This document shows positions 31,405 to 49,340 of a DNA stretch of 59,833 bases, in pieces; the stretch's first letter is position 1; each line of letters begins with the position of its first letter. This DNA comes from Natronospirales bacterium. GTDB lineage: Bacteria; Pseudomonadota; Gammaproteobacteria; Natronospirales; REEB76. Location of the stretch: NCBI GenBank assembly GCA_021816765.1, contig JAKAXB010000009.1, positions 16,532-76,364 on the forward strand, read 5' to 3'. The notes beneath the pieces were generated by a model. It did not search any database. It was not told where the DNA came from and saw only the letters and a list, made by a program, of their open reading frames with translations. The position numbers and the translations under genes were made by a program.

Positions 31405-33615
<2,211 letters not shown>

Positions 33616-33678
33616 TCAACGACTCGGTCTGGTTTGGAGCCCGAGTACCGATATATGAAATTGTTCTTGCAGTGACAT

Positions 33679-33819
33679 CTAGTGATGCGTCAGCCTATTG
33701 ATGAGCCGGGAGTCCTGCATCAGCAGCGGGCCGCGGGGTCCGGCGGTGATGGAATTCTGGTTCTCCGTCACCGGGATACCGACGGAGGTGATCAAGATGG
33801 GGGGTGCGGATTTGTTCAT
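33679..33819 (-). pseudogene. katA: Monofunctional catalase, N-terminal fragment
   Basis: A 46-residue frame with the conserved catalase start: [31 protein letters not shown], then RLINRLTHH and a stop where intact proteins continue (LAHFDRE). An ATG at 33819 with GGAG 9 bp upstream is the likely original start; the open frame extends further upstream to 33900 without family likeness. It faces the oxyR promoter, as a peroxide-regulated catalase would. About 340-400 residues of catalase are missing between this piece and the one at 31095-31395, and katG occupies that place. Confidence 0.82.
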
Positions 33820-33921
33820 GGGCGTGTCGCTCCTGGTTGCGGCTCCGCTCCGTGCGGGGCTGAATGACGCCATTGGGAGCCTTTCTGTTTGATTTATCAA
33901 ATATATTGTTTATATAATAAC

Positions 33922-33938
33922 GATTGATAAAATCAATC
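33922..33938. promoter_or_regulatory. Candidate OxyR operator between oxyR and the catalase genes
   Basis: A perfect inverted repeat, GATTGAT-AAA-ATCAATC, in an AT-rich divergent promoter region, 12 bp before the oxyR GTG. It satisfies the LysR T-N11-A pattern and agrees partly with the ATAG-x-T-xxx-A-x-CTAT OxyR half-site. The assignment is inferred. Confidence 0.5.
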
Positions 33939-33949
33939 TATATCATCAC

Positions 33950-34864
33950 GTGACTCTGCAACAACTGCGCTACGTCGTCGCCCTCGCCGAAACCCAGCAT
34001 TTTGCCCGGGCTGCAGAGCGTTGCCATGTCAGCCAGTCCACCCTTTCCATCCAGCTCAAGAAACTGGAGGACTATTTGGGGGTGACGCTGTTCGACCGCA
34101 GCCTGCGGCGCGTGATGCCGACTCCGCTGGGCCGGGAAATCGTGGCGCGTGCCCAGAACCTGCTGCGCGAGACCGAGCAGATGCGTGCACTCGCCCGCAG
34201 CCAGCGTAGCGATCCCATGGACCGCACCGTGCGCCTCGGCGTGATACCCACGGTGGCCCCCTACCTTTTGCCGCGGGTACTGCCTGTCGTGCACCACCGC
34301 CATCCACGGTTACGCCTGCTGCTGCGGGAAGCGAACACAGAAAATCTGCTGACGGAACTGCACATGGGCCGGATAGATGCCGCCCTGCTCTCGCCACCGG
34401 TACCTGAAGCAGGACTGCATCTCAGGCTGCTCTACCACGAGCCCTTCCTCGCCGCACTGCACGCGGACTCGCCGCTGGCGAAACAGAAACGTGTCAGTCT
34501 CCAGGCCCTGGCGAAAGAGCGCCTACTGCTGCTGGAGGAAGGCCACTGCCTGCGCAACCAGGCACTCGATGTCTGTGGTCAGAGCCAGCCGCACAATGAG
34601 GAAATCAAAGCCACGAGCCTTGAGATGCTGCGACAAATGGTAGCCTGTGGCATCGGTTGCACACTATTACCGGTACTCGCCGCACACTCACCCTCAGCGG
34701 GTGATAAAGCCGATGCGCATGTGACACTGCGCCCGTTCCAGCCGCCCGCTCCGGGGCGTTTTATCGCCCTCGTCTGGCGCAATCGCCAGCCATTGCAGGA
34801 AACTTTACAGCGTCTGGCCGGCACACTTGCGGATCACCTGCCCAAAGATGTGACGCCGATTTAA
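33950..34864 (+). CDS. oxyR: Peroxide-sensing LysR regulator OxyR
   Basis: A 304-residue LysR-type activator. The N-terminal helix-turn-helix shows LRYVVALAETQHFARAAERC and SQSTLSIQLKKLEDYLGV. The effector domain contains the redox pair in LLLEEGHCLRNQALDVC: Cys200 and Cys209 match the disulfide-forming Cys199 and Cys208 of E. coli OxyR. It starts at GTG. It is divergent from the catalase locus, its expected target, across an AT-rich gap with an inverted repeat. Confidence 0.94.
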   Translation: MTLQQLRYVVALAETQHFARAAERCHVSQSTLSIQLKKLEDYLGVTLFDRSLRRVMPTPLGREIVARAQNLLRETEQMRALARSQRSDPMDRTVRLGVIPTVAPYLLPRVLPVVHHRHPRLRLLLREANTENLLTELHMGRIDAALLSPPVPEAGLHLRLLYHEPFLAALHADSPLAKQKRVSLQALAKERLLLLEEGHCLRNQALDVCGQSQPHNEEIKATSLEMLRQMVACGIGCTLLPVLAAHSPSAGDKADAHVTLRPFQPPAPGRFIALVWRNRQPLQETLQRLAGTLADHLPKDVTPI

Positions 34865-35067: not shown

Positions 35068-35247
35068 TCATCCACGACCATAGCGTTGCGCAAGATAGAC
35101 CGCTCCGGCCAAGAGCAGCGGCGGCAGCAGCCATCTGGCAAGCTGCGCCTGCCCTCCGAGAACCATCGCCACCGCGGCGGCGATGGCGACGACCGCCGTG
35201 AGACATGTGGCCATGTCTCCGAACAATGCTTTGAGAAACGTCTTCAT
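35068..35247 (-). CDS. Small 59-residue membrane protein
   Basis: A short protein with two hydrophobic segments, MATCLTAVVAIAAAVAMVLGG (abridged: CLTAVVAIAAAVAMVLG, about residues 13-31) and LLPPLLLAGAVYLAQ (about 39-54), joined by a short loop with Gln and Arg. Its ATG overlaps the stop of the preceding membrane-protein gene as ATGA, which supports real, coupled translation. It is the last gene of the importer operon and may be a subunit or stabiliser of the COG4280-like protein; that is inference. I know no named family for it. Confidence 0.6.
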   Translation of the reverse strand: MKTFLKALFGDMATCLTAVVAIAAAVAMVLGGQAQLARWLLPPLLLAGAVYLAQRYGRG

Positions 35248-35987
35248 GACTTCACCTCCGCAGAAACACTCGCTCCACGGCGCAGGAATTGCGCCGCCAG
35301 CCAGCCACCACCCAGGTAAAAGGCCACCAGCAGCAACACACTGAGATCGCCATGCCACCACACTGCTTCGCCGGCCAATGCCTCCATGGTCCACAGCGTA
35401 CCGAAGGAGAGAAGCATCGCGCCCACGGCGAACTTGATGGCATTTTCCGGAACCCTGCTCAAAGGCGCACGCACCAGCGCGCCCATGACCATCACCATCA
35501 ACAATGCAGCAAGCGCCGCACCGCCCGCGGTCACCAGTTGCCCCGACTTGGCACCCAAGGCCACCACGATTAGGCAGACTTCCACACCCTCCAGAAACAC
35601 GCCCTTGAAGGCAATGAGACCGGCGGCACGCCGATTAGCGTGCGCCAGTTCACCGCGGGTGTGCTCGAATTCCGCCGCTTCGTCATGCAGGGCCTTGAGA
35701 CCCGCGCTGCGCGCGATGGCTTTCGCGAGCCAGCGCAGGCCGAACAGAATCAGAAACACGCCGATCACGCCGCGCAACCAGCCAATGTGTGCGCCGAGCA
35801 GGAGCAGTCCGCCCCCGCTCAGTGCGAATGCGCCAAGCAGGAGCAGCGCCCAGCACGCCGCAAACAGCGCAATACGCCAGCCGGCCGTAATGCCCACCGC
35901 CAGCACAATGGTGAACGCCTCCACCCACTCCACGCTGGCGGCGAGAAACACTGCCGCGAATACACCCCAGTCAAGATTTGCCGTCAT
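35244..35987 (-). CDS. COG4280-like polytopic membrane protein with ExxE motifs
   Basis: A 247-residue membrane protein with about seven helices. It resembles uncharacterised COG4280 proteins. Two membrane-embedded acidic motifs stand out: SVEWVEAFTIVLAVG (about residues 17-31) and FLEGVEVCLIVVALG (about 130-144). Each has E-x-x-E at the head of a helix, in positions reminiscent of the REGxE motifs of FTR1/EfeU iron permeases, but without the Arg. The ATG at 35987 overlaps the ATPase stop (ATGA). Position at the end of an uptake operon suggests metal or substrate handling, which is inferred. Confidence 0.72.
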   Translation of the reverse strand: MTANLDWGVFAAVFLAASVEWVEAFTIVLAVGITAGWRIALFAACWALLLLGAFALSGGGLLLLGAHIGWLRGVIGVFLILFGLRWLAKAIARSAGLKALHDEAAEFEHTRGELAHANRRAAGLIAFKGVFLEGVEVCLIVVALGAKSGQLVTAGGAALAALLMVMVMGALVRAPLSRVPENAIKFAVGAMLLSFGTLWTMEALAGEAVWWHGDLSVLLLVAFYLGGGWLAAQFLRRGASVSAEVKS

Positions 35988-37036
35988 TTCGTATCCTCCG
36001 TGGGATAAAGAAACACATGTTGTGCATCGAGCGTCAATGCGCCTTGTTTGAGCGGTGGCGTCGTCTCCAGGCTGCATAGCCAGCGCGCGTGTCCCGGCAC
36101 GCGCCAGTAGGCACGGTAGGCCCCTGACTCGAACGCGGAATGGGCCAGCTCGCAGGGCAGGCCGTCGGCACCATTGACGTGCACACCCTCGGGGCGCACG
36201 TACATCTCGCATGGCTCACCCGCGGTAACGTTCATCGCCGTCGCCGGCAAAAAATGACTTTCCACGCGTACACCGGTGACGCCGTTCACCTGCTCCACCT
36301 TGGCCTTTATACCGCCTTCGGCGCCGGTGAAGCGCGCGATGCGCGGCGTGCGGGGGGCCGCGTAAATGACGCTCGGGGCCGCGCACTGCACCAGTCGCCC
36401 GCCTTCCAGCACCGCGATGCGGTCCGCCAAACGCCATGCATCCACGGGATCGTGGCTAACCAGCAGTGTAGTCATGCCCGTCTCCCGCACCGCCTGCAGC
36501 AATTCCATGCGCAATATTTCAGTCGTATCCACGTCGAGGCTTGAGAATGGCTCGTCCAGCAGCAATACGCGCGGTCGGCTGGCGAGTGCACGCGCAATTC
36601 CCACGCGCTGCTGTTCACCGCCGGAAATCTCTCCAGGACGCCGCTGCGCCAGTTCCGCAATTCCCAAGCGTTTCAACAGAACCAGGGATTTCACACGGCC
36701 GTCACGGCGGCGATCGCGTAGTACCATGGCCACATTGTCGAGGCAGCACATGTGCGGCCACAAGGCAAAATCCTGGAATACCATGCCGATGCGGCGCTGC
36801 TGTGGCGAAGTGAACCTTCCCCCGGCAGGATCGTCAACGCACTGTCCCTCGATCAGGATGCGCCCGGCATCCGCCTGTTCAAGACCCGCCGCAAGCCGCA
36901 GCAGCGTGGATTTCCCCGTCCCGGAACCGCCGATCACGACGAGGAATTCCCCTTCCTCGACCTCGAGATCAAGGGTGCGCAGCACCGCGCGCCCGCCGAG
37001 GGATTTTTGCACGGCTTTAAATTGCAACAGGGACAT
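35984..37036 (-). CDS. ABC importer ATPase (Fe(III)/phosphonate type)
   Basis: A 350-residue ATPase of the FbpC/PotA group. Walker A is GGSGTGKSTLL (about residues 36-46), the signature is ISGGEQQRVGIARAL, Walker B is VLLLDEPFSSLD and the switch is LLVSHD. The C-terminal roughly 110 residues form a TOBE-like regulatory domain. The ATG at 37036 lies inside the end of the permease gene (20-bp overlap), and its stop overlaps the next ATG, so permease, ATPase and COG4280-like protein are translationally coupled. Confidence 0.9.
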   Translation of the reverse strand: MSLLQFKAVQKSLGGRAVLRTLDLEVEEGEFLVVIGGSGTGKSTLLRLAAGLEQADAGRILIEGQCVDDPAGGRFTSPQQRRIGMVFQDFALWPHMCCLDNVAMVLRDRRRDGRVKSLVLLKRLGIAELAQRRPGEISGGEQQRVGIARALASRPRVLLLDEPFSSLDVDTTEILRMELLQAVRETGMTTLLVSHDPVDAWRLADRIAVLEGGRLVQCAAPSVIYAAPRTPRIARFTGAEGGIKAKVEQVNGVTGVRVESHFLPATAMNVTAGEPCEMYVRPEGVHVNGADGLPCELAHSAFESGAYRAYWRVPGHARWLCSLETTPPLKQGALTLDAQHVFLYPTEDTK

Positions 37037-38603
37037 CGTTGAACTTCCGGGTGACCGCATGGCTGAGGCGCATGCCACTGAATGCCCCGAGTCCGAGCAA
37101 CAGCAGTATCCCCATGGCGGCGAGTCCAAGTCGTGCCGCCTGGGTGTAATCAAGCGCCTGATTCAAGGAGACGATGGACACGCCGAAAGCGGGGCGTCCG
37201 GGTGGATAAAGCAGTTCCGAGATGGGCAGCTCGAAAAAGATGGCGCCGAACGCAAGCCCGTAACCCCATGCAAGCGGACCGGCCAGGAGCGGTAACCGCA
37301 CCTCCGCTATCCGGGCAGCCGCATCGGGCACGTGCAGCAGGGCCGCCTCATACAGATTGCGGTGCACCTGACTGAGCGGTGCCTGCAGCAACCTGAGCAG
37401 CATGGGAACCTGCGCCGCTCCATAGGCGAGTACCAGGAGCAGGGGTGTACCGTAAAGCGACAGCGGACCGCCGTTGAAGACGATGAGATAGGCTGCTCCC
37501 AGCACCACGCCGGGAATGGCCATGTTGACCAGTGTCAGCATGTTTACGACTTGGCCGTACCAGGTGTGACGCATGCGCAGTGCGGGCCAGATAATGAACA
37601 CGCCGGCAAGCGCGAGCCCGGCCCCCAGCATGGCATAGCACAGGGAGTTGAGCAGACTGGACCAGGCGGCCACATCGCCGGCGGTACCCACCGCCGCACC
37701 GGTGGCCGCATACAGAATTCCACCGAGGGGCAAACACACGCCCAGCAGTGCCAGGCTGCCGATGCCGAGCGGTGCCAGGATGCGCGCCGCCCCGGCCAGT
37801 ATGGAAGGTTCCATTATCCGCGAGCGGGCGTCCTGGACTGCCACACTGTAGCGGCGATGAATGAGTACCTGGGCCGACGCCGCCATCACCGCGAGGCCCA
37901 CCAACGGCAGGCTGAGCAGCGCGGCGGCATGGAAGTCCGGCGGTGCGCTGGCGAGCTGCATATATATGGCGTAGGTGACGATGGGCAGGTGGATGCTCGC
38001 TCCCAGCGTGGCGGGGATGCCGAATTCCTGGATGGTCTCCACAAATACCACGACAAAGGCCGCCGCCGCCGCGGGCAGCAGCAGCGTGCCGACGATGCGC
38101 GCCACCCGTTGTTTCGACATGGGAGACAGGGCAAGGGCTTCAAATACGTCATTGCCCAGCATGCGCCAGGCGGCCAGGCTCGCGAAGTAAGCGAACGGCA
38201 GCCCCTTCATGGTCAGCAGAAAAACAATGCCCGGGATGCCGTTGAACAACCTCGCCCACAAAGTCTCACGCAGCAGCGGCATTTCCATGACGATCTGCCA
38301 GCCGGTGGTGAACAGGTAACTGGGGAACAAAAATAGCGTCCATATCATCGGCGAGATCATGCTCCGCAACGGGAACCGGCGGCGGTCCGAAAGCCAGGCG
38401 ATGGCGAGGCCGGGAAGTACGCTCAGCAGGCTTACTGTGATGCCGATGAGCACGCTATTACGCACCGCCGCGTAGGAGATGGCACCGGATGCATGGCTTG
38501 CGAATGCGCCCAGCAGAAACCAGCCCACCGGCAATACGAATAGCGCAGTGAACAACAGCAACCCGAGTATCGGCCCGGTACGGAAACGACGGCGATCAGA
38601 CAT
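37017..38603 (-). CDS. ABC importer permease, fused double domain
   Basis: A 528-residue inner-membrane permease made of two binding-protein-dependent transport domains in tandem (about residues 45-260 and 300-520), each with about six helices, as in FbpB-type Fe(III) and 2-aminoethylphosphonate transporters. EAA-loop-like segments are EALALSPMSKQRVARIVG in the first half and EAALLHVPDAAARIAEVRLP in the second. ATG at 38603 is preferred; a GTG three codons upstream overlaps the binding-protein stop. Confidence 0.88.
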   Translation of the reverse strand: MSDRRRFRTGPILGLLLFTALFVLPVGWFLLGAFASHASGAISYAAVRNSVLIGITVSLLSVLPGLAIAWLSDRRRFPLRSMISPMIWTLFLFPSYLFTTGWQIVMEMPLLRETLWARLFNGIPGIVFLLTMKGLPFAYFASLAAWRMLGNDVFEALALSPMSKQRVARIVGTLLLPAAAAAFVVVFVETIQEFGIPATLGASIHLPIVTYAIYMQLASAPPDFHAAALLSLPLVGLAVMAASAQVLIHRRYSVAVQDARSRIMEPSILAGAARILAPLGIGSLALLGVCLPLGGILYAATGAAVGTAGDVAAWSSLLNSLCYAMLGAGLALAGVFIIWPALRMRHTWYGQVVNMLTLVNMAIPGVVLGAAYLIVFNGGPLSLYGTPLLLVLAYGAAQVPMLLRLLQAPLSQVHRNLYEAALLHVPDAAARIAEVRLPLLAGPLAWGYGLAFGAIFFELPISELLYPPGRPAFGVSIVSLNQALDYTQAARLGLAAMGILLLLGLGAFSGMRLSHAVTRKFNDVPVAI

Positions 38604-38612
38604 ACACGGCAC

Positions 38613-39656
38613 TCATTGATTCAGTCCCATGACACGGCTGAACCAGGGATTGAGGGTCTTCTCCAGCTTCCCCCAATACACCGGATCAAGATGCGCCAGC
38701 CTCACCCCACTGAAATTCGGCAGCAGCGGATTGACGGGCGATGGCGCCCGCGTCAGCGGCCAATAGAGACTGTCCGCCGAACCCTGATCGCTACGCAAAC
38801 GGTTCCCCGCCGGACTGAGCACGTATTGCATGAACTGACGGGCGGCTGTCAGCTGTTGGCCGTGCAGCCCCGCTGACACCACCATCACGCTCGGCAGATC
38901 GTAGACGGGATGCGGCAGTATCACCTGCAGGGTGGAATTGCGATGCTGGAAGTAGTAGGCGGCGGAAGATTGCACCACCGCCACCCTGATCTCGCCGCTC
39001 TTGAGCGCCATCAGGGTCGCGTCATTCTTGGCGAACACCCGCAGGCCGTTGGCCCGGAGTGCCTTGACAAAGGTCTGTCCCGATGGCCAGCCGCCGCCCT
39101 GAGTCAGCAGCCCCGCAAGCACCGGCAGCGCCGGCCCGGAGATGGCGGGATTGTTCATACCCACCCCACCGCGCAGGTCCGGGCGCAGAAGCTCCGGCCA
39201 GGTGCGGGGCGCCCGGGTGGCGAAATCCCGCGACACCACGAATACACCGGCTAGTGTGAGACCGCTGGGAATATAGGCGCCGTCCGGTGACTGTTCTTCG
39301 AGACCAGTGCGGTTCCAGGCCACGGGAAGTTTGAGACCGCGCATGGCGAGACCGGCCGCCGCCAGTCCTTCCGCGGCCTCCGGTCCGTCGAACCAGGCGA
39401 TATCCCAGTGCGGGTGATGGCCTTCAGCAGTCACGCGCGCCAACAGCGGTCCGGTGCCGAGTCGCACCACCTCCACCGGTTTGCCGCTCACATGCTGATA
39501 GGCTTGGGCCACATCGCCGCAGTAATCCAGCGCGCAATAGAGCACCAGCGCTTCCCCCTGCGGCCGCCACCACAGGTAACCGATGGCTGCGGCCGCGAGC
39601 AGTAGCGCGGCGAGACTCACAAATATCAGGCGCCGCAAGCGATCATACTCCTGCAA
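38613..39656 (-). CDS. Extracellular solute-binding protein of the importer
   Basis: A 347-residue FbpA-like binding protein. A hydrophobic segment at residues 9-29 ends without an obvious cleavage site, so it may stay membrane-anchored. The fold is the two-lobe family-1/6 type: LVLYCALDYCGDVAQAYQ at the start, then WDIAWFDGPEAAEGLAAAG, TWPELLRPDLRGGVGMNNP and GEIRVAVVQSSAAYYF. The double Tyr in SSAAYYF sits where iron-binding Tyr residues occur in FbpA-type proteins, but family members also bind phosphonates or polyamines. It follows tonB by 43 bp. Confidence 0.82.
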   Translation of the reverse strand: MQEYDRLRRLIFVSLAALLLAAAAIGYLWWRPQGEALVLYCALDYCGDVAQAYQHVSGKPVEVVRLGTGPLLARVTAEGHHPHWDIAWFDGPEAAEGLAAAGLAMRGLKLPVAWNRTGLEEQSPDGAYIPSGLTLAGVFVVSRDFATRAPRTWPELLRPDLRGGVGMNNPAISGPALPVLAGLLTQGGGWPSGQTFVKALRANGLRVFAKNDATLMALKSGEIRVAVVQSSAAYYFQHRNSTLQVILPHPVYDLPSVMVVSAGLHGQQLTAARQFMQYVLSPAGNRLRSDQGSADSLYWPLTRAPSPVNPLLPNFSGVRLAHLDPVYWGKLEKTLNPWFSRVMGLNQ

Positions 39657-39699
39657 ACCAGGGTGGCTTGAGTTGTGCGGTCATGTATGTCCTTACTTG

Positions 39700-40479
39700 T
39701 CAGCGCGTCGTGTCAAGCCGCACGGCGATCTTGAACGTGGTGTCCTGCTGCGGCAAGCCGCGGGGAAACGGCGGATAGCGGCTGGACTTCACCTTGGCGA
39801 GGGCGGCGTTATCAATCGGCGGTATCCCGCTTGAGTGTGCGAGTTTCGCCCACAGCAGTTGCCCCGACGGGGTCAGCCGGAAAATCACCGTGGCGATGCC
39901 GCGCAAGCGCATGGCGCGCACCATGCCTGGCACCCGCAATCCTGATTGAATTGCCGCATGCAGTCGTGCCGTGTAGCGCGCCAGCACGCTTGCAGTATTT
40001 TCAGCAGGAATGGCCGGCGGCGGCGGCAAGGGTTGCTCCGGCACCTGGAAGGTAGGGTGTGACAGCGGCGTGCGGCTGGAGACTGCGATCACCGGAAGAC
40101 GGGATGCGACGCGCACGGGAGCGGGGGGCGTAACGCGGGCCGGCGTAAGGACGGGCATGGGAGGGGGCGGCAGCGGCGGTGGCGGCTCCACCACATGCAC
40201 CCGCACGCGCAGGGGAGGCCGTGCGACTGCGTGCGCGGGCGCATGCGGAAATCCCCAGGTGATTCCCGCGATTACAGCAGCTTCAATGAGCAACGCGATG
40301 CCGAGCGAACGATAAAAGGGAGCAGATTTGACAGGCCATGTGCGAGGGGACGGCGTCACGGAGAACACCGCCGCCCCCGGCTCCGGAATCGTCGAACCCG
40401 CCGCGGCGGCGGGTCCAGGGGGCAGGTTCCGGCGCACCGACCCGTCGTGCTGACATCCTGCCTGCTCCGACACCTGCAT
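39700..40479 (-). CDS. tonB: TonB energy transducer
   Basis: A 259-residue TonB-type protein. A cytoplasmic N-terminus of about 60 residues leads to one membrane helix (YRSLGIALLIEAAVIAGITW, about 58-77), then a Pro-rich periplasmic spacer (PPPPLPPPPMP and later PEQPLPPPPAIP). The C-terminal TonB domain spans about 170-255, with GIATVIFRLTPSGQLLWAKL and FPRGLPQQDTTFKIAVRL. It starts 13 bp after the receptor gene and so appears dedicated to this operon. Confidence 0.87.
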   Translation of the reverse strand: MQVSEQAGCQHDGSVRRNLPPGPAAAAGSTIPEPGAAVFSVTPSPRTWPVKSAPFYRSLGIALLIEAAVIAGITWGFPHAPAHAVARPPLRVRVHVVEPPPPLPPPPMPVLTPARVTPPAPVRVASRLPVIAVSSRTPLSHPTFQVPEQPLPPPPAIPAENTASVLARYTARLHAAIQSGLRVPGMVRAMRLRGIATVIFRLTPSGQLLWAKLAHSSGIPPIDNAALAKVKSSRYPPFPRGLPQQDTTFKIAVRLDTTR

Positions 40480-40492
40480 ACCGCCCGGATCC

Positions 40493-42958
40493 TCAGAATC
40501 GGGCCGAAGCGGTAAAAAACACCGTGCGCGGGGAACCCGGATAGGCCAGTACGGCCCCCACGCTCTGTGGCACCACAAAATAGCCACCGGCGGAAATCCA
40601 TTCGAAGTTGTTGTACTCCTTGTTCAGAAGATTCAGGACCGACACGCTGAAATCCCACTCGCGCACGGCGCCGCCGTGCATCGGCAGCCTGGCTTGCAGG
40701 GCGGCGTTCAGCAGACCGTAGCCTGGCATCTCCTGGCTGCTGGGGATCGCGAGATTGTCATTGAACATGTGCTCGGCACCGGTGTACTGGTACCAGATAC
40801 GCGGCTCAAGATCCACGTTACCTTCGGGGAAGGCCGTATACAGACCGGCGTTGAACGTGGTGTGGGGGACGTAGGACACCGGCAGGCCGTTGTAGGACAG
40901 TCCGCCTTGCAGATCATAGGTACTGAAATTTGCGTTCTCCAGGCTCAGGTTCACGAACCCATGAATGTTGTACGCAAAGTCATTGTCTGCGTACAGGTTA
41001 AAGCCACGGTACTCGGAACTGCCCGACGCAGAAGTCAGGTACGTGCCGTTTGCGCTGGTGATGCCGATGAGCTGGTTACTGAACTTCAAGTCGTAGCCGT
41101 TGGCCTGCAAGAAGAAATCATGCAGCATTCCTGCGTCCGCAACATGAAGTTTTACCCCCGCCTGCAAGTCGGTGCCTTTCTCCAGCGAAAGCGACGAGGC
41201 GATAATGCTCTGGTACGGACCACCGCCGCCGCCGTTGCCCGGCTGGCGATATGTGGTCGCCCAGTTGGCATATAGCGCAAGCGACGGCGTCGCCTGCCAG
41301 TTGGCATCCATGGAGGGCTCCACCTTGGTGAATGACGTCATCGCGTTCGGCAGTGTGCCTTGGTTGTTGGCGGGATTGGCACCAGGAAAATCCACCGCGC
41401 CGTTTTCCACATAGTCGGTCTGGTAGTTGATCAGCCGGGCACCCGGAGTGAGGGTGAGGGAATCCAGCGGCTTGATGGCGTCCTGCACGAACAAGACCGC
41501 GTTGCGCAGATACCAGTAATTGCTGCGGTAGTGCCCGCTCGGCAGAAACTGGCTGGCATTGAACGGTGGGTTGGGATTCCAGAACGAGTTGCGTGAATTG
41601 TAGACGGAATTCATGTAGGACGCGCCCACGGAAACCGTGTTGTACGGCAGACGGATGTCCTCGTAGAGCCGGTCACCGAACTGGCGGCTGAACGGATTGT
41701 TGTACTCATCAACGTTGTTTGCGCCCTGCTGAAAGTTGTTGTAATGAATGTGCAGACGGTGCCACAACTCGTACCACATCAGGTTATGCAGGGTGGTAGT
41801 ATCGGAAAGGTTGAGGTTGAGCTTGCTGTAGAGGAGTCCGATAGTGTCACTGTCCTCCTTGCGCCAGACGTTAAAGGGCAACTGGCTGTAGTAGCCCGAC
41901 GTAGCCTGGCTGAATTGCGGGCCGGGAACCGGATTGCCATTAGCGTCAATACCATTGATGGTGACGCCCTGGATGGGTGACGTCGGTATGCCTGTCGGAC
42001 GAAACGCAACTCCCTTGGCCGAATACACGCCCAGGCTGAACGTCCCGTTATCCAACTGCTTGCGTGTTTTCAAGAAGCCCGTGTAGGCGCGACTCGGGGA
42101 ATTGAAGCCGTCCGAACTCGTGCGGTAACTGTCTGCCCAGGTGCCGCCGGCCGCTGCCACCGTGCTCCAGCCGTCGTGCGTGCCTGTTTGGGCGTAACCG
42201 TAGATGCCGCGGGTATTGTCCGTGCCGTAGAGGATGCCGGCTTCGCCGCCCGCCTTGGCGGAGGGCTGCAGCGGCACAAAATCGATGCTGCCACCCACCG
42301 CGTTATACCAGCGATCAACCGGATCGCCCGGGCCGTAGGTCACGTTGATACCCTTGAGCAGCTCCAGCTGGTTGACATAGGGCGACTGCCACAGACCCGT
42401 ACCCGGCTCGTTCATGGGCACGTCATCGAAATTGATATCCACACTGCCGTAATCAATGCCGGCGCTGGAAGGTTCACCGCTCCAGCCCTGCTTGATGCCG
42501 TTGATGCTGATGGAATATTTGCTGGCGCCGGTATTCCCATAGCCGTTGATGTGCACGCCGGGGGCGTATTCCAGCGCCTGGGCAGCTCCGGCCGCCGGAC
42601 CCGCCGCCTCGATCTGGCGGCGCCCCAGCACCTTGACGCTTTGTCCCGACTTGAATATCTGTTTCTTGGTGGGCAACTCGCCTTTCCAGGAGGGCTGCAC
42701 CTTCGCGCCCGCGCTCACTTCACCGACATTCACCACTTTGCGGCGGTGCGCCGTCCCCTGGTCGGTCTGCTCGCTGGTCTGAGCGTCTGATGAGGCCATG
42801 TCATTTTGAGGCGGGCTTCCCTCGGCACGGATTTCCGGGCCGACGGGGGCGGAGGGATTGGCCGCGAACAGCGGTTGGATCACACCCAATAGCAACGCCG
42901 CCAGCGATACACCCAGGGCGTCGCGGACGGTCGCAGCGAGTATTCGGGAAGGATGCAT
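40493..42958 (-). CDS. TonB-dependent outer membrane receptor 1
   Basis: An 821-residue outer-membrane receptor. The signal peptide ends near PLFAA (about residue 33). The plug domain (about 95-235) has VKVLGRRQIEAAGPA, LEYAPGVHINGYG and VGGSIDFVPL. A 22-strand barrel follows and ends in the expected aromatic residue (SARF). The ligand is unknown; downstream genes for a Fe(III)/phosphonate-type ABC importer suggest a chelated metal or an organophosphorus compound. It is third in the operon, 86 bp after exbD. Confidence 0.93.
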   Translation of the reverse strand: MHPSRILAATVRDALGVSLAALLLGVIQPLFAANPSAPVGPEIRAEGSPPQNDMASSDAQTSEQTDQGTAHRRKVVNVGEVSAGAKVQPSWKGELPTKKQIFKSGQSVKVLGRRQIEAAGPAAGAAQALEYAPGVHINGYGNTGASKYSISINGIKQGWSGEPSSAGIDYGSVDINFDDVPMNEPGTGLWQSPYVNQLELLKGINVTYGPGDPVDRWYNAVGGSIDFVPLQPSAKAGGEAGILYGTDNTRGIYGYAQTGTHDGWSTVAAAGGTWADSYRTSSDGFNSPSRAYTGFLKTRKQLDNGTFSLGVYSAKGVAFRPTGIPTSPIQGVTINGIDANGNPVPGPQFSQATSGYYSQLPFNVWRKEDSDTIGLLYSKLNLNLSDTTTLHNLMWYELWHRLHIHYNNFQQGANNVDEYNNPFSRQFGDRLYEDIRLPYNTVSVGASYMNSVYNSRNSFWNPNPPFNASQFLPSGHYRSNYWYLRNAVLFVQDAIKPLDSLTLTPGARLINYQTDYVENGAVDFPGANPANNQGTLPNAMTSFTKVEPSMDANWQATPSLALYANWATTYRQPGNGGGGGPYQSIIASSLSLEKGTDLQAGVKLHVADAGMLHDFFLQANGYDLKFSNQLIGITSANGTYLTSASGSSEYRGFNLYADNDFAYNIHGFVNLSLENANFSTYDLQGGLSYNGLPVSYVPHTTFNAGLYTAFPEGNVDLEPRIWYQYTGAEHMFNDNLAIPSSQEMPGYGLLNAALQARLPMHGGAVREWDFSVSVLNLLNKEYNNFEWISAGGYFVVPQSVGAVLAYPGSPRTVFFTASARF

Positions 42959-43044
42959 GTTGATTCTCCTGTCATGAATGGAACCAAAGGAAAAGCGTCG
43001 TTCTCACGTGTCAGCATTGAGGTAATGAAATGCCTGGCGAAAAA

Positions 43045-43443
43045 TCAGGGAGCGGGCTGCGCGGCGATGCCGATGTCGCTCACGCCGGCATGACGCACCG
43101 CGTCCATCACGTGCACGAACCGCTGGAAAGGCACACCCCTGGACGCAGCGATGGTGACCTGGGTCTGCGCCGCGCCCCGGCTCTCCAGCAGTTGCTCAAG
43201 ACTGTCCATGGAGAACCGCCGGCCTTTCACGGATACACCGCCATCCTCAGCGATATTTATTGTGACCTGGGGGCGCGGCAGCTCCCGGGCCTCGCTGGAC
43301 TGCGGCAGTAACAGGTTCAGACCCTGGTCAGGCAACATCTGCATGGTGATGACGATGAAAAACACCAGCAGGAAAAACATCACATCAATCATCGGGATGA
43401 TTTCGATGCGCCCCTTGCGGGGCTCGAAATAGCGCATCCGCAT
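43045..43443 (-). CDS. exbD: ExbD/TolR-family proton channel subunit
   Basis: A 132-residue subunit that with ExbB couples the proton gradient to TonB. The single helix carries the essential Asp in IIPMIDVMFFLLVFFIV (about residues 15-31). A short periplasmic domain ends with PFQRFVHVMDAVRHAGVSDI. Two ATGs (43443, 43437) are possible; both lie 2-8 bp after the exbB stop. Confidence 0.93.
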   Translation of the reverse strand: MRMRYFEPRKGRIEIIPMIDVMFFLLVFFIVITMQMLPDQGLNLLLPQSSEARELPRPQVTINIAEDGGVSVKGRRFSMDSLEQLLESRGAAQTQVTIAASRGVPFQRFVHVMDAVRHAGVSDIGIAAQPAP

Positions 43444-43445
43444 TC

Positions 43446-44135
43446 TCAATTCTCCAGGCCGTAGGCAACCGTGTTGCCGACTTTGGCCCGCGGCGCGATC
43501 TGCCCCACGGGGACCAGGGGTGCGCCGTCCAGGCGATTGAGCAGCATGGTGCGCACGGAATCCAGTTGATGCAGGATCACACGCACCTGATTGTTGTAAG
43601 CATTGAAAGCCAGCAGACCGATCATGGCAATGAGCAACCCGCTGGCGGTGGCCATCAAGGCATCGGCGACTCCTCCGGTGACCGCCGTGGGCGCATGTCC
43701 GGGCGCGGCCAGTACATGAAAGGCGTGAAACATGCCGAGGATGGTGCCGAACAGACCCAGGAGCGGCGCCAGGGTGACGATGGTGTCCAATATCCACAAA
43801 CGCCGGTCCAGCTGGGGCGCGATGATCTGGATGCTCTCGTCCAGGCGGTTGCCCAGTTGCTCGATGTTGGCCAGGCCGTAATGCCGGTAGGCGGTATCCA
43901 CCAGCATGGCCTCGGGCAGGTTACCCGCCTCCTCGATCAGTGCCGCGAGATGTTTGCGATCCAATTCCGGTGTGATGGAAAGGGCGCGGACAAATACCCG
44001 GCCCTTGAGGATGGTCTGTCGCAGATGCCAGCCACGATCGAGGATGATCGCCAGCACCAGCAGCAACAGCAGTGCCATCACATACAGTACGCCGTCGGAC
44101 TCACCGGCCAGCATGTGCAAGTATTGCAGAGACAT
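43446..44135 (-). CDS. exbB: ExbB/TolQ-family proton channel subunit
   Basis: A 229-residue three-helix protein: N-terminal helix at residues 15-35, then LWILDTIVTLAPLLGLFGTILGMFHAF (second helix, split here as LWILDTIVTLAPLLGL and FGTILGMFHAF, about 117-143), and a third helix with ADALMATASGLLIAMIGLLAF (conserved part ALMATASGLLIAMIG). The LLGLFGTILGM and ATASGL segments are the family signature. It is first in the importer operon, and a GTTAC direct-repeat box lies 71-86 bp upstream. Confidence 0.93.
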   Translation of the reverse strand: MSLQYLHMLAGESDGVLYVMALLLLLVLAIILDRGWHLRQTILKGRVFVRALSITPELDRKHLAALIEEAGNLPEAMLVDTAYRHYGLANIEQLGNRLDESIQIIAPQLDRRLWILDTIVTLAPLLGLFGTILGMFHAFHVLAAPGHAPTAVTGGVADALMATASGLLIAMIGLLAFNAYNNQVRVILHQLDSVRTMLLNRLDGAPLVPVGQIAPRAKVGNTVAYGLEN

Positions 44136-44192
44136 CGCGCACTCCGGGATGGATCGTGTGAGTGCGCAGCTTAAACAGGATTTGTTGCAGGT

Positions 44193-44221
44193 ATTTTAAG
44201 AAACGGTAACAAAGAAGTAAT
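44193..44221 (-). promoter_or_regulatory. GTTAC direct-repeat operator and -10 box before exbB
   Basis: On the minus strand ATTAC (44217-44221) and GTTAC (44206-44210) are spaced exactly 11 bp, giving units ATTACTTCTTT and GTTACCGTTTC. TAAAAT follows within a few bases of the second unit as a possible -10 box. Direct repeats at 11-bp pitch next to a -10 are the usual geometry for activation by OmpR/PhoB-type regulators. A second example lies at 52695-52744. Confidence 0.5.
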
Positions 44222-44224
44222 GGT

Positions 44225-45148
44225 TCAATGAATTTCCCCGCCGGCGGGTGGATCGTAGCGATACCCCACCCGATGCAGGGTGCGGATGACATTGGCGAGC
44301 CCGTAAGGGGCCAGGGCTTTGCGCAAATGACAAATGTACGCTTTCACGACATCACGATGCGGCTGTTTCGGCTTGACCTGGATAGAAGCCAGCAACATCT
44401 CCGGCGTAAGCACCTGCCCGGGATGGGTGAGGAACTGAATTAGCAGTGTAAAAAGCGCGGGGGAAAGCCGCAGCTCGGAGCCAGCCGCCCATACCCGCCG
44501 GCTTGCGGGATCCGCATGCAAAAGCGCCCGGTTTGTGGGGCACGCGTCCTGCAGCGCCTGAAAACGCCGCCGCAGGACCTCGATGTGCGCCGTCAGGTGT
44601 CCCTGGGAGATCGGGAAGCTCAGATAACGATGCGCCCCCGCCTGCAGCACTCGCAACTCGGTTTCTGCGTCATTCTGCGCGGAAATCACCAGCAGTGGCG
44701 GAGCGTGACGGTCGGCGCTGAATTTCCGGCACCACTCAAGGGTACCCTCGTTCAAGCGGGATTCCGCCACCAGTATCAGGGCCGGCCTGTATTGGGATAT
44801 CTCTTGGGAAAATGCCGCGGGATTCTCTATCACCCGAACCTGGTAACCCTGATTCTCCAGAAGTTCGAGGCACCGGCGACAGCTATCTTTTTCGCTGGAT
44901 TTTACCGCGATGCGATAACGACCGGTCCGCTCATGCGCGTCCAGATCGGGGAGGCTGATGCCCAGGCAAAATGATGCGCCCAGCTTGTTGATACGACTCA
45001 GAACATTACCGAGAGCTGGCAGCGTATGCGGCGCCAGGTGACTTCGCAATACCGCGCCATGATGGACGATTTCTGCAATCACAGTAACAGCCTGGATAGT
45101 GCGCGTGTGGGCCTGGATCGTTCGTGGCGGTACTTCGGCTTGACGCAA
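44225..45148 (-). CDS. Winged-helix response regulator with pseudo-receiver
   Basis: A 307-residue OmpR-like protein. A receiver-like domain spans about 78-195 (YRIAVKSSEKDSCRRCLELL, ALILVAESRLNEGTLEWC, LLVISAQNDAETELRVLQAGA, HRYLSFPISQGHL). The phospho-acceptor Asp is replaced (ILVAES where ILLD is usual), and the conserved switch Lys is missing, so phosphorylation is unlikely. The C-terminal winged helix (about 215-303) is intact: LSPALFTLLIQFLTHPGQVL, DVVKAYICHLRKAL, IRTLHRVGYRY. The first 75 residues are of uncertain status, and the true start may be later. It ends 89 bp upstream of exbB on the same strand. Confidence 0.82.
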   Translation of the reverse strand: MRQAEVPPRTIQAHTRTIQAVTVIAEIVHHGAVLRSHLAPHTLPALGNVLSRINKLGASFCLGISLPDLDAHERTGRYRIAVKSSEKDSCRRCLELLENQGYQVRVIENPAAFSQEISQYRPALILVAESRLNEGTLEWCRKFSADRHAPPLLVISAQNDAETELRVLQAGAHRYLSFPISQGHLTAHIEVLRRRFQALQDACPTNRALLHADPASRRVWAAGSELRLSPALFTLLIQFLTHPGQVLTPEMLLASIQVKPKQPHRDVVKAYICHLRKALAPYGLANVIRTLHRVGYRYDPPAGGEIH

Positions 45149-45312
45149 GCCTACTCCCGTCCTGTGACATATCTTTTACAACTGCGTGAATACCCCGTTC
45201 GCCGGCAGGGCTCATCGGCACGCGGTGGCATGTCGTGAAACGAGGTTGCTTCGAACCGGAGGCCCTTTACTGCACGAAACGGGCTGCCCGGTATTCCCGT
45301 TCAAAAAAAGGA

Positions 45313-45576: not shown

Positions 45577-45700
45577 TGCCTCCGATTATTGGACCGACGA
45601 CGTGGGTTTTCTTTTCATCCGGGGAAAGCATACTCTTGCTGGTACAGCCGTTACCGTTTCGAGTTCGCCGCTTCCCATATTTCATGGAATTGAAACATAA

Positions 45701-45731
45701 CTGTCATATTTCAATTGTCATAAATAGTCAT
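45701..45731 (+). promoter_or_regulatory. TGTCAT-like repeats upstream of ppx
   Basis: CTGTCAT (45701-45707), TTGTCAT (45715-45721) and AGTCAT (45726-45731) lie 17-47 bp before the ppx start. They resemble Pho-box half-sites, but the spacing (14 and 10-11 bp) is irregular compared with the 11-bp pitch of a true Pho box. Confidence 0.3.
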
Positions 45732-45747: not shown

Positions 45748-47256
45748 GTGAAAATGCCGCCCGCAAAATCTTCTCCTTACCCCCTCATTGCCGCTGTTGA
45801 TCTCGGATCAAACAGCTTTCACTTGATTGTGGCTGAAGTACACGGAACGGATATACGCGTCATTGATCGTCTGCGGGAGATGCTGCGCTTTGGATCGGGC
45901 CTGGACGCCAACAGCCGAATCATGACGGACGCCTCGAAACGCGCGCTCGATTGCCTGCGACGGTTCGGCCAGCGACTGCAGACCCTGAACCCGCGTCAGA
46001 TACGCGCCGTAGCCACCAACACCCTGCGCAAGGCACGCAACGCCGAGACTTTCCTGCGCCGTGCCGAGGCCGCCCTCGGTCATCCCATCGAAGTCATCTC
46101 CGGCGTGGAAGAAGCGCGTCTCATCTATCAGGGCGTAACCGGTTCCCTGGCAAAGGACGATGAGCGCCGGCTGGTGGTGGATGTGGGCGGCGGGAGTACC
46201 GAACTCATCATTGGGAAAGGCACCACACCGCGCGTGCTGGAGAGCCTCGCCATGGGCTGCGTAGCCATGACGGATGCCTACTTCCCCACGTCAATCGTCA
46301 GCCGCGCACGTTTTCGCGAGGCAGTGCTCGCCGCACGCCAGCAACTGGAACCGGTACAGGCAGCGTTACGCCGGGACGGCTGGCAACGAACCATTGGTTC
46401 ATCGGGCACGATCCGTGCGGTGGAAAACGTTATCCGCGAACTGGGGTGGCGCCGCGAGGGGATCACGCTTGAATGCCTGCAGCGCCTGTCGGATCGCCTG
46501 GTGCGCCAGCGGCGCACAGGCCATCTCATGCTCCCCGGGCTTGCGACGGAGCGCGCACCGGTATTTGCCGGCGGTGTCGCGGTACTGACGGCGGTATTCG
46601 AGGCGCTCGGATTGGAACACATGGATGTTGCCGGCGGTGCATTGCGCGAGGGCGTGCTGCTGGACCTGCTGGGGCGCCTGAAGGGTGAAGACATCCGCGC
46701 GGACGCGGTCGAGAGCCTCGCCATGCGCTATGCGGTGGATGTCCATCAGGTCAGGCGCGTCGAGGCCGCGGCATTGGAAATCCATGCGGCGGTACGGCAG
46801 TCCTGGCGGCTGGATGAGGAGAGCCGCCGCCTGTTGAGCTGGGCAGCCTGGCTGCATGAGTGCGGCCTCGCCGTGGCACACAGCGGTTACCACAAACACG
46901 GGGCCTATATCATCGCCAATGCCGACATGGCGGGATTTTCCCGCCAGGAGCAACGGTTGCTCGCCGCGCTGGTACGCCTGCACCGGCGCAAGTTCGCAAC
47001 GGCCGTGCTCAACGAACTGGATACGGACTGGAGAGACCGCATCCTCCGACTTGCCGCGATTCTGCGCCTCGCCGTGCTGCTGCATCGCAGTCGTGACGCC
47101 GGAGACACCCCCAAGTTCAGATCCCGGGCGAAAGGATCATCGCTGCAGCTGCGGTTCCAGCGCGGCTGGACCCGAGCGTATCCATTGACGTACGCCGATC
47201 TCACCGAAGAAGTTCAGCAGATGCGCGACAGTGGTATCCGCCTGTCGCTAATCTGA
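45748..47256 (+). CDS. ppx: Exopolyphosphatase (Ppx/GppA family)
   Basis: A 502-residue enzyme that removes phosphate from polyphosphate ends (or acts on pppGpp). The actin-like ATPase fold shows phosphate-1 VDLGSNSFHLIVAE (residues 18-31), VISGVEEARLIY with the catalytic-region Glu, phosphate-2 VVDVGGGSTELIIG and GSSGTIRAVENV. A C-terminal HD-like helical domain (about 315-500) has WLHECGLAVAHSGYHKHGAYI. It starts at GTG 45748 or at ATG 45754. It is convergent with ppk1, with only 8 bp between the stops. Confidence 0.94.
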   Translation: MKMPPAKSSPYPLIAAVDLGSNSFHLIVAEVHGTDIRVIDRLREMLRFGSGLDANSRIMTDASKRALDCLRRFGQRLQTLNPRQIRAVATNTLRKARNAETFLRRAEAALGHPIEVISGVEEARLIYQGVTGSLAKDDERRLVVDVGGGSTELIIGKGTTPRVLESLAMGCVAMTDAYFPTSIVSRARFREAVLAARQQLEPVQAALRRDGWQRTIGSSGTIRAVENVIRELGWRREGITLECLQRLSDRLVRQRRTGHLMLPGLATERAPVFAGGVAVLTAVFEALGLEHMDVAGGALREGVLLDLLGRLKGEDIRADAVESLAMRYAVDVHQVRRVEAAALEIHAAVRQSWRLDEESRRLLSWAAWLHECGLAVAHSGYHKHGAYIIANADMAGFSRQEQRLLAALVRLHRRKFATAVLNELDTDWRDRILRLAAILRLAVLLHRSRDAGDTPKFRSRAKGSSLQLRFQRGWTRAYPLTYADLTEEVQQMRDSGIRLSLI

Positions 47257-47264
47257 ATTTATCG

Positions 47265-49340
47265 TCAAACGTGTTCCGCGTACTGGTCCAATAATAATTG
47301 CTGTGCGTCACGCGCACCTTTCTTGCGCGGCTTGATACGCCGGTAATGCCCATCCGCCTGGAGTACCCAGGCATGGGTGTTATCCTTGAGACATTTCTTC
47401 AAATCCTTGACGATGCGGTCGCGGTGCTTCTTCTGCAGTATGGGGAAACACACTTCCACGCGCCTGAAGAAGTTCCGTTCCATCCAGTCGGCGCTGGAGC
47501 AGTACACTTCCTTTTTGCCATTATTGTGAAAATAATACACACGACTGTGCTCCAGGAAATGTCCGACAATGGAGCGCACGTGGATATTCCTGGATATTCC
47601 GGGTAATCCGGGACGCAGGCAACAGATACCGCGCACGATGAGATTGATTTTTACACCCGCCATGGCCGCCCGGTACAGTGCCTGAATGATCCCGGGTTCG
47701 GTCAGGGCGTTGACCTTCACGATGATGTGTGCCGGCTTGCCGGCCTCGGCGTATCCGGCTTCCCGCTCGATCAGTTCCAGCATGCCGGCATGCAGGTAAA
47801 AGGGTGACAGTTTCAGCTTGTGCAGCTTCGCCACCTTGCCAAGGCTGGTGAGCTGCAAAAATATGCGATTCACATCCTCGCCGATTTCCTGGTCACAGGT
47901 CATCAAACCATAGTCCGTGTACAGTTTGGCCGTGCGGAGATGATAATTCCCGGTGCCGAGGTGCACGTAGCGACGCAGCGTACGCCCTTCGCGGCGCACC
48001 ACCAGCGTCATTTTGGCATGGGTCTTGTAACCGACAATGCCATACAGTACATGGGCGCCTGCCTGTTGCAGCTTGTTGGCCAGCACGATGTTATCCGCCT
48101 CGTCAAAGCGGGCGCGCAACTCGATGATAACGGTTACCTCCTTGCCGGCCTGGGCAGCAGCCACCAGGGCATCCACCACCGATGATTCGGGTCCGGTGCG
48201 GTACATGGTTTGCTTGATGGCGAGTACCTTGGGATCGTTCGCTGCCTGCCGCACGAAATCCACCACGGGCAGGAATGATTCATAGGGATGATGCAGCAGA
48301 ACATCACCGGCGCGGATGACTTCGAACAGGTCCGCGCCCTGTCCCAGGTGCCGGGGGGTGCCGGGGATAAAAGCGGGATACTTGAGATCCGGCCGGTCAA
48401 CCAGGTCGCAGATCTCGCCGAGCCGGTTCAGATTGACGGGGCCGTTAACCGCATAAAAGTCATCCATTCCAAGCTGGAATTGCCTGAGCAGGAATGCGCT
48501 GGTTTCTTCCGGACACTCGGACGACACTTCCAGGCGTACTGCGTCCCCATCCCGCCGCGATGCCAGTTCACCCTGGACAGCGCGCAGCATGTCATCTATT
48601 TCTTCCTCGTCCACGTAAAGATCGCTGTTGCGGGTCACACGAAACTGGTAGCAACCCGTTACCCTCATGCCGGGGAACAGCTCATCCACATAGGCATGGA
48701 TCACGGAGGACAGTAATACAAACTCGTGGGTGCGCTTGTCGGTCGCCGGCAACTGGATCACGCGGGAAAGCGCCCGCGGAGCCTGCACGATGGCCATGCC
48801 GCTGTGACGGCCGAAAGCATCCTTGCCTTCCAGCGGCACGATGAAATTCAGACTCTTGTTCAAAATGCGTGGAAAAGGATGCGCCGGATCGAGCCCCAGC
48901 GGACTCAGGATGGGCAGCAGCTCGTCATTAAAATAGCGCCTGAGCCAGGCCTCCTGGGCGGCTGTCCAACTGTCCCGGCGGATGAAATGGATATGCTCAT
49001 CGGCAAGCGCGGGAATCAGCAGCTCGTTCAATACCCGGTATTGCTCGGCGACGTTCTGCAGCGCTTCTATGCGCACCGCACGCAACGTTTCTATGGCAGT
49101 CATGTCATCCGGCGACAGGCGCGCAGTGGCCAGTTCGAGACGTTGCTGCAGGCCGGCGACGCGGATCTCGAAAAATTCGTCCAGATTCGTGCTGGATATA
49201 CACAGGAACCACAGCCGTTCCAGCAACGGCGTGGCGGGATTTCTGGCCTGTTCCAGGACGCGACGGTTGAAGGCAAGCTGGCTGAGCTCGCGGTTTATAT
49301 AAAACTCGGGTCTTTTGAGGTCAGGGGAATCCATGTGCAA
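47265..49340 (-). CDS. ppk1: Polyphosphate kinase 1
   Basis: A 691-residue enzyme that reversibly polymerises ATP gamma-phosphate into polyphosphate. Domain order: N domain (FYINRELSQLAFNRRVLEQA), head domain, then two phospholipase-D-like C domains. The phosphorylated His is in GYKTHAKMTLVVRREG, with HLGTGNYHLRTAKLYTDYGL following. The second His region lies near VYYFHNNGKKEVYCSSADWM and RRVEVCFPI. The gene is full length. Its convergent partner ppx degrades the product. Confidence 0.96.
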   Translation of the reverse strand: MHMDSPDLKRPEFYINRELSQLAFNRRVLEQARNPATPLLERLWFLCISSTNLDEFFEIRVAGLQQRLELATARLSPDDMTAIETLRAVRIEALQNVAEQYRVLNELLIPALADEHIHFIRRDSWTAAQEAWLRRYFNDELLPILSPLGLDPAHPFPRILNKSLNFIVPLEGKDAFGRHSGMAIVQAPRALSRVIQLPATDKRTHEFVLLSSVIHAYVDELFPGMRVTGCYQFRVTRNSDLYVDEEEIDDMLRAVQGELASRRDGDAVRLEVSSECPEETSAFLLRQFQLGMDDFYAVNGPVNLNRLGEICDLVDRPDLKYPAFIPGTPRHLGQGADLFEVIRAGDVLLHHPYESFLPVVDFVRQAANDPKVLAIKQTMYRTGPESSVVDALVAAAQAGKEVTVIIELRARFDEADNIVLANKLQQAGAHVLYGIVGYKTHAKMTLVVRREGRTLRRYVHLGTGNYHLRTAKLYTDYGLMTCDQEIGEDVNRIFLQLTSLGKVAKLHKLKLSPFYLHAGMLELIEREAGYAEAGKPAHIIVKVNALTEPGIIQALYRAAMAGVKINLIVRGICCLRPGLPGISRNIHVRSIVGHFLEHSRVYYFHNNGKKEVYCSSADWMERNFFRRVEVCFPILQKKHRDRIVKDLKKCLKDNTHAWVLQADGHYRRIKPRKKGARDAQQLLLDQYAEHV

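Follow-up and report, generated by a model that had tools for sequence, protein, structure and literature searches.

A conserved TonB- and ABC-type transport operon with a COG4280-like permease pair in a Natronospirales genome and its probable link to phosphorus uptake

Introduction

Uptake of iron and other metals is the role usually assigned to TonB systems, and uptake of ferric iron that assigned to FbpABC-like ATP-binding cassette (ABC) systems. Both kinds of machinery come together in a gene set on the minus strand of a 59,833-nucleotide stretch of DNA from a Natronospirales bacterium (GenBank assembly GCA_021816765.1, contig JAKAXB010000009.1, positions 16,532 to 76,364; hereafter the window), running from position 44135 down to 35068. 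Several described systems share part of this build. AfuABC was originally annotated as an iron importer (PMC4546632), and the residues S/T37-G and S148-G149-T150 form the phosphate-holding loops of AfuA and of P5PA (PMC4546632, PMC8427247). In P. aeruginosa, exbB2-exbD2-tonB4 is expressed in phosphate starvation along with secreted phosphatase genes (PMC7035377). Osorio et al. (2008, PMC2631029) proposed a 'metallophosphate/phosphonate uptake module' for Acidithiobacillus and Leptospirillum. The gene set of the window recurs in other bacteria, belongs to modules whose promoters are together enriched in Pho boxes, and has a binding protein that lacks the ferric-ligand residues of its iron-binding relatives; it is probably a phosphate-starvation-controlled (Pho-type) importer that takes a phosphorus-bearing solute across both membranes.

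Organization of the operon

The initial annotation had placed nine genes on one strand with short gaps or overlaps, and this is borne out by the coordinates of the open reading frames (ORFs), all nine of which were confirmed, and by Pfam searches, in which each part was assigned except the 59-residue protein, which has no family above cut-off. From exbB to the gene of that protein the intergenic gaps are +2, +86, +13, +43, +9, -20, -4 and -4 nt (negative values being overlaps), the largest thus being 86 nt and the final three junctions overlapping. The set is real but larger than had been proposed, as a tenth gene, for an OmpR/PhoB-type regulator, was overlooked; it lies 89 nt upstream of exbB on the same strand and is kept with the set. 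The ten genes are the following.

44225..45148, minus strand: OmpR/PhoB-type regulator with a degenerate receiver, from family searches; the real start is possibly downstream of 45148
43446..44135, minus strand: ExbB-type proton-channel protein (Pfam MotA_ExbB, 89.8 bits)
43045..43443, minus strand: ExbD-type protein (Pfam ExbD, 102.6 bits)
40493..42958, minus strand: TonB-dependent outer-membrane receptor (Pfam barrel 95.8 bits, plug 33.6 bits)
39700..40479, minus strand: TonB-type protein (Pfam TonB_C; NCBIfam tonB_Cterm above cut-off)
38613..39656, minus strand: solute-binding protein of FbpA/AfuA fold (alternative TTG start at 39638)
37017..38603, minus strand: fused double ABC permease (Pfam BPD_transp_1, two stretches)
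35984..37036, minus strand: ABC ATPase (Pfam; top NCBIfam model PhnT2, below cut-off)
35244..35987, minus strand: COG4280-like/OFeT_1 permease with two ExxE motifs (Pfam OFeT_1)
35068..35247, minus strand: 59-residue membrane protein, putative detached C-terminal part and partner of the COG4280-like permease

The signatures of TonB-dependent transport, namely plug and barrel, the TonB C-terminal domain and ExbB/ExbD, all score above the Pfam cut-offs, which supports the earlier proposal of a dedicated outer-to-inner membrane route with its own ExbB, ExbD and TonB. For the ExbB and ExbD proteins, the TolQ/TolR models score slightly higher than those of ExbB/ExbD, all of them under their equivalog cut-offs. 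The accompanying view that such a one-operon route is uncommon is not supported (cf. Osorio et al. 2008, PMC2631029).

Conservation of the gene set

A search of 10 congeners found the COG4280-like gene in 2, and it is scarce elsewhere (7 of 369 genomes sampled from the class and 10 of 398 from the phylum, both counts including the source genome). The two congeners that carry it, L008 and L009, have the identical ten-gene order, which is also present in L049 and L095, two genomes of another gammaproteobacterial family; given this recurrence, the arrangement is beyond chance. A lack of conserved association, named in the initial annotation as evidence that would count against it, was looked for by neighbourhood comparison, and the association recurs across genomes.

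The binding protein, double permease, ATPase, COG4280/OFeT_1 permease and small protein make up what is here called the core. In L050 the order is receptor-ExbB-ExbD-binding protein-permease-ATPase-COG4280-small protein, and L048 and L012 combine a receptor with the core, the receptor of L012 being confirmed by family search. The core is also found in L014, L047 and L096, as well as in L029 (Thermaceae) and the rhizobial-type L054, so that its spread takes in Alphaproteobacteria and Thermaceae; portions of it lie at contig ends in L013 and L030. The receptors of L048, L050 and L012 belong to a different subfamily, with 21-23% identity to that of the window, and the core has therefore been joined to a TonB route more than once.

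Pho-type promoter signals and an atypical regulator

Pho boxes were scanned with the textbook consensus CTGTCATANANCTGTCAY in 16 module promoters and in 151 control intergenic regions of the same loci, and were found to be enriched in the former (Mann-Whitney p = 6e-6), with p <= 0.05 in 37% of module regions vs 5% of controls. The high-scoring controls include regions before pstS, a receptor-phosphoesterase pair, another phosphoesterase and ppk, and these phosphorus-gene regions act as positive controls for the scan. In L049, six 11-bp units of TGTCATAAAA type lie between the regulator gene and exbB, and a pstS promoter of the same genome carries the near-identical repeats TTGTCATAAAA GTGTCATAAAA GCTTCACAATA. 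Because the initial scoring was tuned after L049 had been seen, reliance is placed on the textbook consensus and on L095 and L096, both added after the hypothesis was formed, which bear a six-unit and a four-unit array, respectively. The 19-bp Fur consensus matched none of the module gaps beyond shuffles, a kind of scan that can miss sites. The repeats of the window itself are the following.

45160..45192, minus strand: Pho-box-like 11-bp repeats upstream of the regulator, TATTCACGCAG TTGTAAAAGAT ATGTCACAGGA
45679..45711, plus strand: second Pho-box-like repeat in the regulator/ppx gap, ATTTCATGGAA TTGAAACATAA CTGTCATATTT, which may serve ppx
44191..44223, minus strand: TTACC-type direct repeats with an 11-nt period before exbB, the period being read by eye

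Only seven positions in the whole window reach a score of 12 or higher; the regulator/ppx gap accounts for three, ppk has one on its upstream side, and the phosphoesterase gene has one at its 5' end.

The regulator is conserved upstream of exbB in L008, L009, L049 and L095. Alignment with PhoB of E. coli places Ala or Leu at the position of the phospho-acceptor Asp in the regulators of the window, L008 and L009. The TTACC-type repeats likewise precede exbB in L008 and L009, and are a plausible candidate operator of this atypical regulator. An inverted repeat, GCGCACTC...GAGTGCGC, spans the Shine-Dalgarno sequence of exbB at 44137-44167, with similar ones in L008 and L009; in these three loci the stability of the corresponding hairpin is not clearly above that of shuffles (z about -1.6).

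The binding protein and its likely ligand

The binding protein adopts the FbpA/AfuA fold in a model with a mean predicted local distance difference test (pLDDT) score of 90.3, and has a long N-terminal helix that is a possible membrane anchor. In the profile alignment, the family-invariant S231-A232 occupy the positions of the ferric ligands Tyr195-Tyr196, and His9 is lost too. The top fold matches are AfuA, P5PA and VcA0625 (Z 32.4-32.9), all of which bind phosphorylated ligands, while ferric-binding proteins trail at Z 31.4 and lower. The invariant T68-G69 and S173-G174 fall where AfuA and P5PA have their phosphate-holding loops, with P175 standing where the loop S148-G149-T150 has its Thr.

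Three known importers each differ in at least one defining feature. An FbpABC ferric importer agrees in fold, but the ferric ligands, including Tyr195-Tyr196, are absent. The ring-binding residues of AfuA, H205, D206 and E229 (PMC4546632), are not kept in an alignment with 4r72, so that a hexose-phosphate protein of AfuA type is ruled out. The top NCBIfam models for all three ABC parts are those of the 2-aminoethylphosphonate importer PhnS2-T2-U2, but the scores lie below all three equivalog cut-offs (30.4 of 392.75, 238 of 457.7 and 58.7 of 593.25 bits), and this identity is rejected as well. Phosphonates degraded by carbon-phosphorus (C-P) lyase are also rejected as the general substrate, since PhnJ was not found in the seven gammaproteobacterial carriers tested; it was not found in the genomes of L012 and L014 either, and the tested genomes that do have it are the two of rhizobial type and that of the Thermaceae.

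The COG4280-like permease and its small partner

The initial annotation had regarded the last two proteins of the operon as non-standard parts of such a system, which they are, but had missed that they appear to be one unit. The OFeT_1 model (PF16955, cut-off 26.9 bits) gives 33.9 bits with the COG4280-like protein of the window, 31.4 with that of L012 and 22.4, below cut-off, with that of L029. The ExxE motifs E20/E23 and E133/E136 are invariant in 23 COG4280-like sequences, as are V19 and L132, which stand where the REGLE motif of FTR1-like permeases has Arg. A structure model (pLDDT 87.5) has no confident fold match among solved structures, sequence profiles gave no solved relative, and a literature search for the name COG4280 found no paper.

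In nearly every locus with enough downstream DNA, a small membrane-protein gene directly follows the COG4280-like gene, mostly overlapping it; none was seen in L051 and L052. In Dormibacterota/Chloroflexi loci, the COG4280 protein bears a C-terminal tail in place of a separate small protein, a tail to which the rhizobial small proteins are similar (E down to 4e-12; profile-profile probability 97.8%). Because of this match to a tail fused to COG4280 in Dormibacterota, the COG4280-like and 59-residue proteins look like one bipartite permease. The 59-residue protein of the window scores weakly by sequence against the fused tails (E about 0.01 at best), and its group is tied to them by position, a short LFxD motif and the rhizobial small proteins.

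In other settings, the COG4280-like gene forms a recurring pair with a ChrB-type gene (L099, L100, L102, L058 and L017), the hosts being of a rhizobial-type family, another proteobacterium and a Dormibacterota genome. A DUF347 (COG4705-like) membrane protein is encoded near the COG4280 and small-protein pair in L053 (11556-12392), where a two-component system adjoins its gene, in L059 (7684-8463) and in L098 (6182-6997). In Telmatospirillum (L015, 2265-10884) the pair lies by a two-component system, and what may be a resistance-nodulation-division (RND) efflux gene set is apparent beside it.

Phosphorus genes around the operon

Upstream of the regulator, the window holds genes of phosphorus metabolism and a second receptor.

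45748-47256: ppx, neighbour upstream of the regulator
47265-49340: ppk, neighbour
50196-52574, minus strand: second TonB-dependent receptor
53027-55810, plus strand: beta-propeller phosphoesterase of 927 residues

The second receptor and the phosphoesterase stand back to back beside ppk. The best Pho-box match in the window (13/16, at 53091) lies near the 5' end of the phosphoesterase ORF, whose real start is possibly downstream of the annotated one. An orthologue of this phosphoesterase (57%) is encoded near the L049 module (L075, 6377-9310), and in L009 a phosphoesterase lies about 3 kb downstream of the module. The modules of L049 and L095 are flanked by plcP-like and agt-like genes, as known from lipid remodelling in phosphate starvation (PMC4796936), and by RNase T2, that of L049 additionally by an acid phosphatase/phospholipase C gene. 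In the rhizobial-type L054 the order is phnM-phnN-rpiR-binding protein-permease-ATPase-COG4280-small protein, with PhnM and PhnN exceeding the NCBIfam cut-offs, and in L055 it is phnM-phnN-COG4280-small protein.

Elsewhere in the window, genes for a KatG-like catalase-peroxidase with peroxidase domains and a LysR-type, OxyR-like regulator (31405-34864) converge on the end of the operon, and an ExeA/GspA-like protein (15344-16957) combines an AAA domain with peptidase-C39-like and peptidoglycan-binding domains.

Proposed mechanism and alternative readings

The gene set, its conservation, the pairing of the last two genes, the Pho-box enrichment, the phosphorus-gene neighbourhood and the loss of ferric ligands were computed; from them the substrate, the direction and cargo of the COG4280 pair and the role of the regulator are inferred, which gives the following probable route. 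A phosphorus compound, possibly a metal-phosphate complex and perhaps freed by secreted nuclease and phosphoesterases, would cross the outer membrane through the receptor powered by ExbB, ExbD and TonB. The binding protein, possibly membrane-anchored, probably grips an anionic group (phosphate, phosphonate or a phosphate complex), and the double permease and ATPase would bring the solute inward. The COG4280 pair would be an extra FTR1-like inner-membrane permease that may move released metal or a counter-ion, a guess prompted by its family. The regulator, devoid of a phospho-acceptor, would help to switch the operon, probably by binding the repeats before exbB.

Several observations weigh against a phosphorus importer. 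The ranking of the folds is suggestive only, since the margin over the ferric-binding proteins (Z 32.9 vs 31.4) is small, and FbpA likewise binds a phosphate or carbonate anion. For the receptor, a single-sequence search gave no solved relative, and the nearest ones in a profile search are distant siderophore/metallophore receptors. OFeT_1 is an iron/lead transporter family, and elsewhere COG4280 genes adjoin ChrB or DUF347 genes without phosphorus genes. Several module promoters are related by descent, and the modest Pho-box-like sites of the window itself, at 45164 and 45690, agree with the consensus at 12/16 positions (region p = 0.017) and are shared with ppx. The first alternative is a ferric-chelate importer, whose receptor would take an iron chelate and whose FbpABC-type ABC part and FTR1-like permease would carry the iron inward: the receptor and TonB set are present, the binding protein has the FbpA fold, the permease matches OFeT_1, the receptor profile is closest to siderophore/metallophore receptors, and similarly built iron clusters are known, such as cfbpABC with exbB1/exbD1/tonB1 in C. 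jejuni (PMC4491227). However, the ligands His9, Tyr195 and Tyr196 are lost, no module gap has a Fur box beyond shuffles, and the Pho boxes and phosphorus-scavenging neighbours point elsewhere, so that the iron reading suggested by the names of the parts is weakened and this importer is considered unlikely.

The phosphorus and iron readings merge if a metal-phosphate or metal-organophosphate is taken up, the phosphorus part entering by the ABC arm and the metal by the COG4280 pair. The two inner-membrane routes within one conserved operon and the metal-type motifs of the permease alongside Pho boxes are consistent with it, and a metallophosphate module was proposed for acidophiles by Osorio et al. 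(2008, PMC2631029); a metal site in the binding protein is nevertheless hypothetical and COG4280 pairs stand alone in other settings, which makes this reading rather improbable. The bolder version, that one machine splits imported metal-phosphate complexes at the inner membrane under a Pho-type regulator working without phosphorylation, is doubtful to the same degree. Alternatively, transport genes that function separately may have clustered loosely or by chance, which could explain why the core occurs without the TonB part in L014, L029, L047 and L096 and why only parts are seen in L030. Two families share the ten-gene order, however, and the same core is combined with receptors from two subfamilies (L048, L050 and L012), which leaves this explanation very little room.

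If the set carries phosphorus, clusters of the same order, in acidophiles and in other bacteria, bear a wrong name, as AfuABC once did. Phosphorus, scarce in acidic water where metals hold phosphate, would then have a way through the outer membrane, and the COG4280-like family, together with the small partner that had been overlooked, would be placed in a functional context for the first time.

Comparison with known systems

The module of Osorio et al. (2008) resembles the present one in its receptor, ExbBD-TonB, upstream PhoB-like regulator of the OmpR family, acidophile hosts, and phosphatase and 'surface layer protein' (SLP) neighbours. That combination of receptor, ExbBD-TonB, PhoB-like regulator and phosphatase/'SLP' is found here if, as we infer, the 'SLP' equates with the beta-propeller phosphoesterase. 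It differs in that the ABC core and the COG4280 and small-protein pair are unnamed in the passages that describe it, where the module is interpreted as taking up iron chelated by phosphate and Fur boxes are predicted. AfuABC, P5PA and VcA0625 share the fold of the binding protein, whose phosphate-loop positions agree in part, with P175 in place of Thr; the AfuA ring-binding residues are absent from the window protein, and the parts of these systems described in the passages at hand include no TonB receptor or COG4280 pair. FbpABC and C. jejuni cfbpABC-exbB1/exbD1/tonB1 are alike in ABC build, fused double permease, and receptor and TonB genes; the set of the window lacks the ferric ligands, and module promoters across genomes are enriched in Pho boxes, with no match to the Fur consensus beyond shuffles. 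The P. aeruginosa exbB2-exbD2-tonB4 set is similarly tied to phosphate starvation, but neither a binding protein/ABC core nor a COG4280 pair is among the genes listed, and its regulator is the sigma factor VreI. The OFeT_1/FTR1-like permeases (iron-lead transporter family, EfeU, FTR1) share the PF16955 match and two invariant ExxE motifs with the COG4280-like protein, which differs by Val or Leu for the REGLE Arg, a separate small partner and its joining to an ABC importer. Since at least one defining test went against each of FbpABC, AfuABC and PhnS2-T2-U2, the gene set is a member of none of them, and it is filed as a variant of the TonB-plus-ABC importers.

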